NCBI GenBank assembly: GCA_003576805.1
Contig: QEVM01000020.1
Location: 1-38,576 of the forward strand
DNA from: Pseudomonadota bacterium
GTDB taxonomy: Bacteria > Myxococcota_A > UBA9160 > PR03
DNA length: 38,576 nucleotides
Direction: 5' to 3'
The notes under the pieces were generated by a model. That model had not been told where the DNA came from. It searched no databases and saw only the letters and a program-made list of their open reading frames with translations. Positions 10,084 through 24,160 of the stretch are shown piece by piece; positions within the stretch are counted from its first letter, which is position 1, and each line of letters starts with the position of its first letter. The translations under genes were made by a program, and so were the position numbers.

Positions 10084-11112
10084 TCAGCCTTCGACCGTCC
10101 AGGTGTCGCCGGAGCGCAGCAGCTTGTCGAGCTTGCCCGGGCCGCGCGCCTCGACGGCGCTCTCGATCTGGGACTGGAGCATGCGCTCGTAGGTCGGCCG
10201 CTCGATCGCGCGCAGCACGCCGACGGGGATCGGGAACTCCGGCGGCGCCAGCGTCGCGAGCGCGAAGTGGTAGGCCGGGCTCTGCGCGCGCTCGTCGTGC
10301 ACCGTGACGCCCGCGGCGATCGGGTCCTCGTCGTCCCGCAGCGGGACGACGGTGGGCACGCCGTGCTCGATCCGGATGCCGCGGCGCTGTCCCTTGGCGC
10401 CGTAGACGAGCGGCTGCCCGTGCTCGAGCCGCAGCGCCGTGTCGACGCGCGTCTTCTTGTCCTCGATCGCCGCCCACTCGCCGTCGTTGTACACGGGGCA
10501 GTTCTGGAGGATCTCGACGAACGCCGCGCCGCGGTGATCGTGCGCGCGCCGCAGCACCTCCTGGAGGCCCGGCGCGTCGACGTCGACGGTGCGCGCGACG
10601 AACGTGGCGCCGGCGCCGAGCGCGAACGCGCTCGGCTCGATCGGGTAGTCGATCACGCCCATCGGCGTCGACTTGTTGCGCATGCCGACGCGCGAGGTCG
10701 GCGAGTACTGGCCCTTGGTGAGCCCGTAGATGCGGTTGTTGAAGAGCAGGATCTGGAGGTCCACGTTGCGGCGGATCACGTGGAGCATGTGGTTGCCGCC
10801 GATCGAGAGCCCGTCGCCGTCGCCGGTGATCACCCAGACCGACAGCTCCGGCCGCGCCAGCTTGATCCCGGTCGCGAAGGCCGGCGCGCGGCCGTGGATG
10901 GTGTGGAAGCCGTAGGTGTTCATGTAGTACGGGAAACGGCTCGAGCAGCCGATCCCCGACACGAACACGAAGTTCTCGCGCGGCACGCCGAGCTCCGGCA
11001 TCACGCGCTGGACGTTGGCCAGCACGCTGTAGTCGCCGCAGCCGGGGCACCAGCGGACCTCCTGGTCCGACTCGAAGTCCTTCTTGGTCAGCTTGGCGAG
11101 CGGTTCCGCCAT
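10084..11112 (-). CDS. korB: 2-oxoglutarate:ferredoxin oxidoreductase (2-oxoacid) beta subunit
   Basis: The 342-residue protein is the thiamine-diphosphate subunit. CPGCGDYS supplies Cys22 and Cys25, GIGCSSR supplies Cys56 and NCPVYNDG supplies Cys205; together these are the four ligands of the 4Fe-4S cluster expected in this family. The TPP-binding motif runs from GDGDGLSIGG (about 98) to FNN (about 126). With KorA it oxidises 2-oxoglutarate plus CoA to succinyl-CoA and reduces ferredoxin. The ATG shares its first base with the korA TGA stop, so the two are translationally coupled. Substrate choice is inferred from family resemblance and from nearby TCA genes; a pyruvate-active relative is less likely. 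Confidence 0.92.
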   Translation of the reverse strand: MAEPLAKLTKKDFESDQEVRWCPGCGDYSVLANVQRVMPELGVPRENFVFVSGIGCSSRFPYYMNTYGFHTIHGRAPAFATGIKLARPELSVWVITGDGDGLSIGGNHMLHVIRRNVDLQILLFNNRIYGLTKGQYSPTSRVGMRNKSTPMGVIDYPIEPSAFALGAGATFVARTVDVDAPGLQEVLRRAHDHRGAAFVEILQNCPVYNDGEWAAIEDKKTRVDTALRLEHGQPLVYGAKGQRRGIRIEHGVPTVVPLRDDEDPIAAGVTVHDERAQSPAYHFALATLAPPEFPIPVGVLRAIERPTYERMLQSQIESAVEARGPGKLDKLLRSGDTWTVEG

Positions 11113-15466: not shown

Positions 15467-16276
15467 GTGGCCACCATCGAGACGCAGGCGCTCGTGCTGC
15501 GCGTCGTCGACTTCGGCGAGTCGGACCGGATCGCGCACCTGCTGACGCCGGTGACGTCGCGGCTCACGGTGATCGCGAAGGGCGCCAAGCGCAGCAAGCG
15601 TCGCTTTCCGGGGACGCTCGATCTCTTTCACCTGCTCGACGTGCGCATCGAACGGCGCCGCCCGACGTCGATGGCGCGGCTCGAGCAGGCGAGGCTGCTC
15701 GACGCGTGGACGCCGCTGCGCCGGCATCCCGCGCGCTTCGCGCTCGCCTGCTATCTCGCCGAGCTGGTGGACCGGCTCGCGACCGAAGGCACCGGCGGTC
15801 GCGAGGCGCGCGATCTGTTCGCGGCGGTGCTCGGCGCGCTGCGCGCCGCCGCGAGCCGCGAGCCGACGCCGCGCATGCGCGCGCTGCTCGAGCTGCGCGT
15901 GCTCGCGGCGATCGGCCTCGAGCCCGAGCTGCGCCGCTGCGTGCGCTGCGGGCGCGACGCCGACGCGTCCGGCGCGGCGGCGGGCGAAAGCGCCAAGGTC
16001 GCGTTCCACGTCGCCGAGGGCGGACCGCTCTGTGTCGGCTGCACGGCAGTCGGCGATCCGTGCATGACGCTGCACCGCGGCACGCTGCGCGCGCTGGAGC
16101 AAGGGCTGCGGCTGCCGTTCGATCGCATCGATCGGCTCGCGCTCGGCGCCGAGCCGACCGCCGAAGCGCGCGCGCTCCTCGCGCGCTTCCTCCGCTTCCA
16201 CGTCGGCTTCGAGCTGCGCAGCGAACGCTTCCTCGACTCGCTGCTCGCGAGCGGCACGGTGCGCGCGTTGGCTTGA
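15467..16276 (+). CDS. recO: DNA repair protein RecO
   Basis: The 269-residue protein opens with TQALVLRVVDFGESDRI and GAKRSKRRFPGTLDLFHLLD, the N-terminal OB-fold of RecO. A helical domain follows, with a zinc-finger-like C-x2-C pair at CVRCG and another at CVGC. RecO works with RecF and RecR to load RecA on gapped DNA covered by single-strand binding protein. The start is GTG at 15467, with a weak GGAG site about 15 bases upstream. It is 46 bases after the RodZ-like gene. Length is slightly above the E. coli protein (242). Confidence 0.93.
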   Translation: MATIETQALVLRVVDFGESDRIAHLLTPVTSRLTVIAKGAKRSKRRFPGTLDLFHLLDVRIERRRPTSMARLEQARLLDAWTPLRRHPARFALACYLAELVDRLATEGTGGREARDLFAAVLGALRAAASREPTPRMRALLELRVLAAIGLEPELRRCVRCGRDADASGAAAGESAKVAFHVAEGGPLCVGCTAVGDPCMTLHRGTLRALEQGLRLPFDRIDRLALGAEPTAEARALLARFLRFHVGFELRSERFLDSLLASGTVRALA

Positions 16277-16317
16277 CCCGCCGGGGATGGCTCGCGATCA
16301 TGCTCCGGCTGTAGATT

Positions 16318-16491
16318 CTCGCCGCTCGCCTTCGGCTCGCTACGCGGGAATCGAGCACGGAGGCGCATCGGTGCACGGCGATTCATTGGCGGCTCGCCGC
16401 TCGCCTTCGGCTCGCTACGCGGGAATCGAGCACGGAGGCGCATCGGTGCACGGCGATTCATTGGCGGCTCGCCGCCCGCGTTCGGCTGGCT
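16318..16491 (+). repeat. 75-bp direct tandem repeat, two exact copies plus a degenerate partial third
   Basis: Copy one spans 16318-16392 and copy two 16393-16467, identical at every base. A third partial copy from 16468 matches the first 24 bases with three changes and then diverges. Each unit contains a self-complementary block: GAATCG at its left edge pairs with CGATTC at its right edge (16348-16384 in copy one, 16423-16459 in copy two), with a nested GCAC/GTGC pair. The hairpin loop includes GGAGGC. The array fills most of the 231-base gap between recO and glyQS and ends about 16 bases before the glyQS start. The unit is a multiple of three, but the short open frames across it look non-coding. 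Confidence 0.95.
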
Positions 16492-16507
16492 CGGCGGGGG
16501 GGGCAGC

Positions 16508-17847
16508 GTGAGCGAGGACGCACTCGACGCCGCTTCGCTGCCGCGCATGGACGACATCGTCTCGCTGTGCGCCCGGCGCGGCTTCATCTGGCAGTCGAGC
16601 GAGATCTACGGCGGCATCAACGGCTTCTGGGACTACGGGCCGCTCGGCGTCGAGCTCAAGAACAACCTGAAGGCGCTGTGGTGGCAGAAGGTCGTGCGCG
16701 AGCGCGACGACGTCGAGGGCATCGACTCGTCCATCATCGCGCACCCGCGCACCTGGGAGGCGTCCGGGCACGTCGAGCACTTCAGCGACCCGCTCGTCGA
16801 CTGCCGCGCGTGCAAGAAGCGCATGCGCGCCGACCAGCTCGACGACGCCGGCCCGTGTCCCGCGCGCCAGGGCAGCTCCGAGCACGACTGGACGCCGGCC
16901 CGCAACTTCAACCTGATGCTCAAGACCTTCGTCGGCGCGCAAGAGGACCAGGCGGCCGTCGCGTTCCTGCGCGCGGAGACGTGCCAGTCGATCTTCCTCG
17001 ACTTCAAGCGCGTGCGGGAGAGCGCGCGGCAGAAGATCCCGTTCGGCATCGCGCAGATCGGCAAGGCGTTCCGCAACGAGATCAACCCGCGCAACTTCAC
17101 CTTCCGCTCGCGCGAGTTCGAGCAGGCGGAGCTGGAGTTCTTCGTCCATCCGAGCGAGCGCGAGCAGTGGTTCGAGCACTGGCTCGAGCAGCGCGTCGCG
17201 TTCCACCGCGCGCTCGGCTTCGGCGACGACCGCCTGCGCGTGCGCCCGCACCGCCCCGACGAGCTGGCCCACTATGCCAAGGCCGCCGCCGACATCGAGT
17301 TCCGCTTCCCGTTCGGCTGGCAGGAGATCGAGGGCGTCCACGATCGCGGCGACTGGGACCTGCGCCGCCACGGCGAGTTCTCCGGCAAGGAGCTCGCGGT
17401 CACCGACGAGGACACCAAAGAGCGCTACGTCCCGATGGTGATCGAGACCTCCGTCGGCGTGGATCGCACCTGCCTCGCGCTGCTGTGCAACGCCTACGAG
17501 GAGGAGAAGCTTCCCGACGGCGAGACCCGCACGGTGCTGCGCCTGCCGTTCGCGGTCGCGCCGATCCAGGTCGCGGTGCTGCCGCTCTCGAAGAAGCTCG
17601 CGGAGCCGGCCGAGCGCCTGGTGCGCGACCTGCGCCGCCGCTTCGCCGTCTTCTACGACGAGGCGGGCAACATCGGGCGGCGCTACCGCCGGCAGGACGA
17701 GGTCGGCACACCGTTGTGCGTCACTGTCGACTTCGAGACCGAGGCGGACGGCAAGGTGACGGTGCGCGAGCGCGACTCGATGCAACAGGAGCGGGTGCCG
17801 GTGGACGGCGTCCGCGGACATCTGCAGGACCGATTGGAGGGATCCCG

Positions 17848-17851
<4 letters not shown>
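16508..17851 (+). CDS. glyQS: glycyl-tRNA synthetase, homodimeric class II type
   Basis: The 447-residue enzyme charges tRNA-Gly with glycine. SLCARRGFIWQSSEIYGG and GFWDYGPLGVELKNN mark the alpha2-type synthetase rather than the alpha2beta2 GlyQ/GlyS type. FRNEINPRNFTFRSREFEQAE holds class II motif 2, and VIETSVGVDRTCLALL holds motif 3. A CRACKKR segment near residue 100 may be a zinc remnant. The GTG at 16508 lies just after a run of eight G and has no clean ribosome site; ATG 16547 (MDDIVSLC) is a credible alternative that keeps the whole domain. The last codons overlap ppdK by four bases. Confidence 0.95.
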
Positions 17852-24060: not shown

Positions 24061-24119
24061 GCGGCAAGGATCCTTCGGAAGCGCGCAGTGCGGGTGCGGT
24101 GCGCGAGCTCGGGGACTTC

Positions 24120-24143
24120 GCTCGCCTTCGGCTCGCTGCGCGG
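24120..24143 (+). repeat. dispersed copy of the first 24 bases of the glyQS-leader repeat core
   Basis: This 24-base stretch (GCTCGCCTTCGGCTCGCT followed by GCGCGG) matches 16324-16347 and 16399-16422 inside the tandem repeat with one A-to-G change. It lies between the exonuclease start and the 3' end of tRNA-Glu. A GGCC-TTC-GGCC mini-hairpin follows directly. Confidence 0.8.
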
Positions 24144-24160
24144 CCTTCGGCCTTGCGCGT

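Follow-up and report, generated by a model that had tools for sequence, protein, structure and literature searches.

Why does an exactly duplicated 75-bp sequence stand between recO and the gene for glycine--tRNA ligase? The locus lies in a window of 38,576 nucleotides, the whole stretch of DNA analysed here (contig C390, 72.6% GC), which stems from G000, the 5.54-Mb draft genome of an uncultured soil bacterium. As the preliminary description had stated, the recO-glyS gap contains two units, 100% identical and arranged head to tail, and a decayed third copy (Table 1). The array occupies most of the gap and its TRF call runs to position 16498 with 2.4 copies and 95% matches; since only draft MAGs represent the genus, assembly could affect the exact copy number. 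Three readings had been offered, namely a leader regulator, a small RNA duplicated in tandem and a mobile palindromic repeat. We argue here that the array is, with high probability, one site of a genus-specific family of GTAG-tagged, REP-like hairpins that has spread as small non-autonomous mobile DNA.

The downstream neighbour had been named glyQS, after the alpha/beta type, but TIGR00389 and NF003211 assign the enzyme to the single-chain (dimeric, glyS) type. Its reading frame is open through the array, yet an N-terminal GlyRS extension was rejected, since no ATG, GTG or TTG lies in frame upstream of 16508. An Rfam scan of the window found two tRNAs only and neither a T-box nor any other family at the array, in agreement with the earlier statement that this is not a T-box. 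In the inverted-repeat scan of 16200-16620 the sole pair was a palindrome in recO.

Table 1. Features of the recO-glyS array and related elements (window positions unless a locus is named)
Feature	Position	Strand	Remarks
recO	15467..16276	+	upstream neighbour; PF02565/PF11967
Sigma-70-like promoter	16273..16301	+	TTGACC-17-GATCAT, at the recO stop
Probable remnant of the linker found before heads elsewhere	16305..16317	+	compare CGGCCTCATGGAGA at the matching place of G001
Unit 1	16318..16392	+	REP-like head, variable middle and tail; GGCGATTCATTGGCGG
Unit 1 head	16318..16350	+	33-base part shared genome-wide
Unit 1 head, outer stem	16318-16322 with 16344-16348	+	
Unit 1 head, inner stem	within 16324-16340	+	around the variable triloop 16331-16333
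GTAG tag, unit 1	16340..16343	-	CTAC on +; foot of the inner hairpin
Unit 1 tail	16377..16392	+	GATTCATT type, as at about ten other copies
Unit 2	16393..16467	+	same letters as unit 1
Unit 2 head	16393..16425	+	
GTAG tag, unit 2	16415-16418	-	equivalent of the unit 1 tag
Decayed third head copy	16468..16498	+	26/31 identical to the first 31 bases of the unit
glyS	16508..17851	+	single-chain glycine--tRNA ligase, downstream neighbour; GTG start 16508
Second, order-wide relative of the head	24114..24146	+	core CGCTCGCCTTCGGCTCGCTGCGCGG; GCAG, not GTAG
In-frame heads (uvrC, moeA, PBP1A/PbpC-like, nadE, hisF)	L096 1780-1870; L170 1780-1870, 4480-4590; L149 1800-1900; L094 1822-1860		

The array is not alone in its genome. 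A search with the 75-bp unit matched 87 places; the tandem array of the preliminary description was recovered, but it belongs to a dispersed family and is no lone array. The pattern of the head, allowing at most 3 mismatches, occurs at 202 places in the genome (83 on one strand, 119 on the other), and the reversed pattern used as control at none. With at most 1 mismatch we counted 162 heads in G000, 71 in G001 and 39 in G002, which form one genus, and 0 in the family members G003, G004 and G005. In a sample of 282 genomes of the phylum that did not include the congeners G001 and G002, the window's own genome was the sole match, the other 281 giving 0. Carriers of the head include the MAGs CTSoil_098 (labelled Deltaproteobacteria) and Prado149 (labelled Myxococcota), the latter with the same head counts and places as G001. 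One G001 candidate (10183-10221) turned out to be a false match when its sequence was read and was dropped. The head had no match in the plasmid and phage collections. Publications containing the letters GGCTCGCTACG concern, to judge from their titles, subjects unrelated to the repeat, and among publications on Myxococcota intergenic repeats or on RAYTs with Myxococcota or Deltaproteobacteria no title describes it. The family looks genus-specific, and it appears to be a new addition to the REPs, a known class of small mobile repeats. Further families of the order have a shorter related core that carries GCAG, with some match in 20 of the 60 genomes searched. The copy of this type in the window is older-looking and adjoins a tRNA gene on the other strand.

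The head is defined by a hairpin that has changed its letters while keeping its pairs. Seventy-two distinct heads share the fold (((((.((..(((...)))..))...))))), and 91.9% of cells are paired in it. Without exception, pair 3-29 is either CG (52 heads) or GC (20 heads); pair 4-28 is GC in 49, CG in 20 and something else in 3. The outer stem covaries between CG/CG and GC/GC, and both sides have changed in 42 cells of these 72 heads, compared with 15.1 +/- 2.8 in shuffles. Roughly one head in three does not form the two outermost pairs of the stem, and few ancestral events may account for the exchange. RNAfold returned the same hairpin for both heads of the window and for many, though not all, other heads, while in single-strand folding of the window head with DNA parameters it was not the minimum (z about +0.5). 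The strings on which the fold had been drawn earlier (GAATCG, CGATTC, GCAC, GTGC, GGAGG) are all present; the covarying stem, however, is CTCGC/GCGGG and not GAATCG/CGATTC, which is unpaired in the minimum-energy RNA structure of the 75-nt unit. Elsewhere the GAATCG arm mostly reads GAAAC (98 of 146 own-genome heads), and GAATC occurs in just 4 of the 146, so that the GAATCG/CGATTC pairing is nearly private to the glyS locus.

Read on the reverse strand, the head consists of GTAG and an imperfect hairpin, GC-GA-GCC-NNN-GGC-GA-GC. GTAG is unpaired and conserved on this strand. It was present in 143 of 192 heads, with GCAG in 8, in a search that left columns 24-26 unconstrained; the 72 distinct heads carry GTAG (66), GCAG (5) or GTGG (1). 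Of these 72, 68 retain the mismatch in the stem (TC/TC, read as GA/GA on the GTAG strand). The triloop varies (TGC, GTT, TTC and others). Elsewhere, the full unit opens with a linker whose last letters are CCTNATGGGG or TGAT; the head CTCGCCGCTCGCC-NNN-GGCTCGCTACGCGGGAA, about 20 variable bases and the tail follow. Copies also form tandem arrays: successive heads on the same strand are spaced 90-99 bases in 46 of 77 cases, 40-44 in 19 and 75-79 in 6, the period differing by locus (near 42, 75 or 94-95 bp). Neighbouring heads at most 300 bp apart have the same orientation in 77 of 78 cases and the opposite one in a single case. Alleles of triloop and stem are mixed within arrays. A coding repeat in general was rejected, the periods of 94-95 being no constant multiple of three.

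Placement among genes was studied in 62 regions of the window's genome, a sample of the 202 heads chosen from the first 100 head places and the 75-mer matches, with genes called by a codon model trained on this genome itself. Most heads (134 of 146) lie outside called genes, while 235,662 of the 270,676 examined bases were called coding, in regions that had been picked around repeats. The 72 head clusters, collected at no more than 4 mismatches and including a few doubtful ones, are distributed over convergent gaps (20 clusters), codirectional gaps (26), divergent gaps (14) and called genes (12). Convergent gaps are enriched (20 of 61, versus 4 of 90 head-free gaps of at least 20 bp; Fisher p 4.7e-6), a value that is indicative because the regions are head-centred. 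A role as terminator only was rejected, since copies also stand upstream of genes and inside them. Besides glyS, two further head sites are common to G000 and Prado149, and a head that G001 carries in a convergent gap is without an equivalent in the window; the sites are therefore partly old and inherited, partly recent. At one gene, seen in L130 (G000) and L161 (G001), a head stands just 3' of the stop in opposite orientations relative to the gene, as if this gene end had been struck twice.

Mobility is supported by heads within conserved genes, of which filled and empty versions exist. In uvrC of G000, 29 extra codons (87 nt) hold linker, head and tail, and this insert is absent in all six informative relatives (G001, G002, G004, G005, G007 and G008), the match in G003 having stopped short of the site. 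The moeA gene of G002 has about 43 extra codons with two heads, which are absent in the seven relatives shown, G000 included. For nadE, one head is found in G002 and two in G000, and none in G001, G003, G004, G005 and G008 (5 informative, G006 being uninformative); the insert is a net gain of 36 nt. In hisF, (F)PRSEP.ASGE or a variant is encoded in G000, G001 and G002 and absent in G005 and, at the DNA level, in G004; rows L178 and L179 of the protein alignment were misplaced and not used, and L178 was taken from the DNA. In phmmer comparisons with solved structures, NadE and MoeA have additional residues around the heads and the match to PBP1A is split there, and Pfam domains are whole or split around the inserts. 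Inspection by eye showed no target-site duplication at the edges of the uvrC, nadE and moeA inserts. Of the marks of a MITE, neither terminal inverted repeats at the array nor such a duplication at these edges were found.

Orientation within genes is strongly one-sided. Antisense heads in called genes number 17; they are spread over 13 gene copies at 12 sites, since nadE is shared, and are translated as FPRSEPKASGE or SRVASRRRAA and variants. Sense heads number 2, both in the doubtful call L099, which was not counted as an in-gene insertion: its N-side has a coding score of 0.14 and the orthologue match begins downstream, and the called gene probably has a later true start. L098, which matched only at 3 mismatches, was likewise left uncounted.

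These features recall GTAG REPs, which are moved by RAYT proteins and which have, according to the excerpts of PMC3733652 and PMC8266576, GYAG variants of the tag, a stem mismatch that is needed in E. coli and sub-families with alternative complementary stem bases. Within the same excerpts, the GTAG REPs of E. coli (y/z), S. maltophilia and Pseudomonas resemble the head as imperfect hairpins of 20-40 nt with GTAG or GYAG at the foot, and share the conserved stem mismatch (group 2 REPs) and the sub-families with exchanged stem bases. They also occur, as far as the excerpt of PMC3733652 describes them, in high copy number, mostly between genes with many in convergent gaps, and sometimes within genes, DNA repair genes included. 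The head family differs from GTAG REPs in its head-to-tail arrays instead of the usual inverted pairs, in an extra covarying outer stem that encloses GTAG, in its longer unit of about 90 nt and in that no head adjoins a RAYT-like gene in the regions read. A REPIN is made of two REPs in inverted orientation. REPINs and BIMEs share with the head family their construction from REP hairpins, their dispersion and a plausible movement by a RAYT in trans; BIMEs, however, carry REPs in alternating orientations (PMC2817692, in excerpt), and the same orientation of 77 of the 78 close pairs of heads fits neither.

With respect to insertion into proteins, there is a likeness to the Rickettsia palindromic elements (RPE), which in the excerpt of PMC2229807 are short palindromes both between genes and in frame in conserved protein genes; palindromic repeats coding for protein are likewise named for Wolbachia in a title cited there. 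Compared by description only, RPE are unlike the head family in their size of 105-146 bp, their terminal inverted repeats and, in R. conorii, their CGTC tag (PMC2229807 and PMC3733652, in excerpt); the tag here is GTAG and the host genome has 5.5 Mb. PARCELs are also repeated palindromic DNA that gets translated, but by the excerpt of PMC2996958 they are tandem protein domains, many of them in membrane proteins, whereas the head unit is mostly non-coding and enters unrelated enzymes.

A RAYT would be the expected mover of a GTAG REP. In the window's genome PF01797 was found over its cut-off once (26.3 bits), and NF047646 reached 37.1 bits, below its cut-off of 80. A RAYT-like subgroup has 3 matches in G000, 3 in G001 and 2 in G002 and none in G003-G005; it was found as well in 7 of 37 further genomes, with up to 50 matches in G030. 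Related RAYT-like genes are also present in genomes without heads, G030 among them. No head stands beside the RAYT-like genes read in L080, L081, L083, L216, L223 and L224, nor in the 16-kb region L156 at up to 3 mismatches, this reading having covered part of the RAYT-like copies in these genomes. A RAYT flanked by heads (REPtron) is ruled out for the regions read. RAYT-like genes are present and flanking heads were not found, so that RAYT-type mobilisation of the heads is, by analogy with GTAG REPs, plausible and no firmer than that. Two observations stand apart. G030 (for example L220), a relative from the order, has some 50 RAYT-like matches, of which many lie at the ends of contigs, compared with the few copies usual for RAYTs. 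In G005, some 0.8 kb separate the order-wide core (L077, 79-100) from a RAYT-like gene, which could be chance.

The lack of flanking heads leads to the strongest alternative, in which the same dispersed repeat has spread without a transposase, by gene conversion or template switching between hairpins. The mixed triloop and stem alleles within arrays also suggest conversion. Against this, GTAG and the conserved mismatch match what the TnpA-REP enzyme needs (PMC8266576, in excerpt), and the RAYT-like subgroup is present throughout the genus (three genomes), whereas the three further genomes of the family that were examined lack it. We regard such a spread as a serious possibility, short of even chances; it is a variant compatible with our main explanation.

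Under that main explanation, a small mobile repeat, the conserved part is the head, on the GTAG strand GTA-GC-GA-GCC-NNN-GGC-GA-GC, within a short covarying outer stem. The moving unit would be head, linker and tail, about 90 nt as in the 87-nt uvrC insert, or little beyond the head, as in the 36-nt net gain of nadE. A RAYT-like HUH transposase may move it in trans, as single-stranded DNA, and after insertion the copies would expand in place, head to tail, with periods near 42, 75 or 94-95 bp, local duplication proceeding by slippage or unequal exchange. At glyS, the element would have landed in the 5' leader just after the promoter, in an ancestor shared with G001, and the unit would then have been duplicated exactly and recently in the window's genome. 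A more specific picture can be put forward tentatively, although we think it unlikely to hold in all its parts: in this Myxococcota genus, the repeat would be a GTAG monomer of about 90 nt made of linker, hairpin (enclosed by a second covarying stem) and tail. A distant RAYT-like enzyme would move it in trans; it would multiply in head-to-tail fashion and not as inverted REPINs, and would enter conserved enzymes repeatedly, in frame and in one orientation only, as an RPE-like source of new protein loops.

Does the element nevertheless serve glyS? As a cis-acting leader, its hairpins would control translation or termination, and the decayed last copy may mask the G-rich ribosome-binding region. 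A conserved promoter precedes the array and the start codon follows it. The promoter motif was found once, compared with 0.0 in shuffles, and the array begins 16 bases after it. In the third copy a hairpin is still predicted (-17.5 kcal/mol), the 3' arm of which is the start of the GGCGGGGGGGG stretch, with its G-rich 3' side just upstream of the GTG start. The site is filled in both genus members in which it can be read: G001 has heads at the same place and in the same orientation, while the G002 contig begins within glyS. However, middles and tails differ between G000 and G001. In six relatives from outside the genus (L050, L051, L053, L054, L055 and L059) the recO stop overlaps or adjoins a TTGACA or TTGACC promoter with an AATACT-like -10, and no array was found in their glyS leaders, which are short (part of L059 reads N). 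The promoter is present in relatives without the array and therefore belongs to glyS. A seventh relative, L064, has a related core upstream of the promoter. The arrangement of the glyS promoter at the recO stop (TTGACA...AATACT) recurs across families of the order.

The regulator reading is further weakened by the same element standing beside and within unrelated genes, by the absence of any Rfam leader family and by the folding of the leader, which is no more stable than its shuffles (z -0.61; z -1.21 for the 75-nt unit). Neither of the regulatory suggestions made earlier, the leader device or the duplicated small RNA, gains positive support from an element that occurs in convergent, divergent and codirectional gaps and in genes and from a leader of ordinary structure; both keep a chance at this locus because the array probably lies within the transcribed glyS leader. 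We consider a glyS regulator improbable and the element in the leader most likely tolerated rather than selected for such a role. The suggestion of a mobile palindromic repeat, in turn, is backed by the dispersion, the filled and empty sites, the covarying hairpin and the GTAG tag.

Still less probable, in our view, is a neutral minisatellite formed by replication slippage without any mobile element. Neighbouring units are identical over 75 bp, compared with 84% identity to the next best full-length copy in the genome, which indicates local duplication and bears out the recent event proposed from the identity alone; the differing periods among loci point the same way. Slippage alone leaves the 202 dispersed copies, the conserved GTAG and stem and the clean insertions in uvrC, moeA and nadE unexplained. 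It probably accounts for no more than the last step, and the exact doubling at glyS is best seen as a later local event. A small RNA gene in tandem duplicate, for which the promoter-like site just upstream could speak, is the least credible reading, given that no Rfam match was found, that this promoter is the one of glyS, conserved in relatives without the array, and that middles and tails vary freely between copies.

The odd repeat in the glyS leader is now explained as an element of a family, and it illustrates that reading a single locus can mislead. The array is most likely not a glyS device, and what makes the family moderately interesting is its in-frame insertions. Annotators should take FPRSEPKASGE-like stretches that recur in the proteins of this group for inserted repeats, not for domains. 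Since the same genes are available in filled and empty form in three related genomes, the length of DNA that moves, how well proteins tolerate it and the role of the distant RAYT-like enzyme are directly testable.
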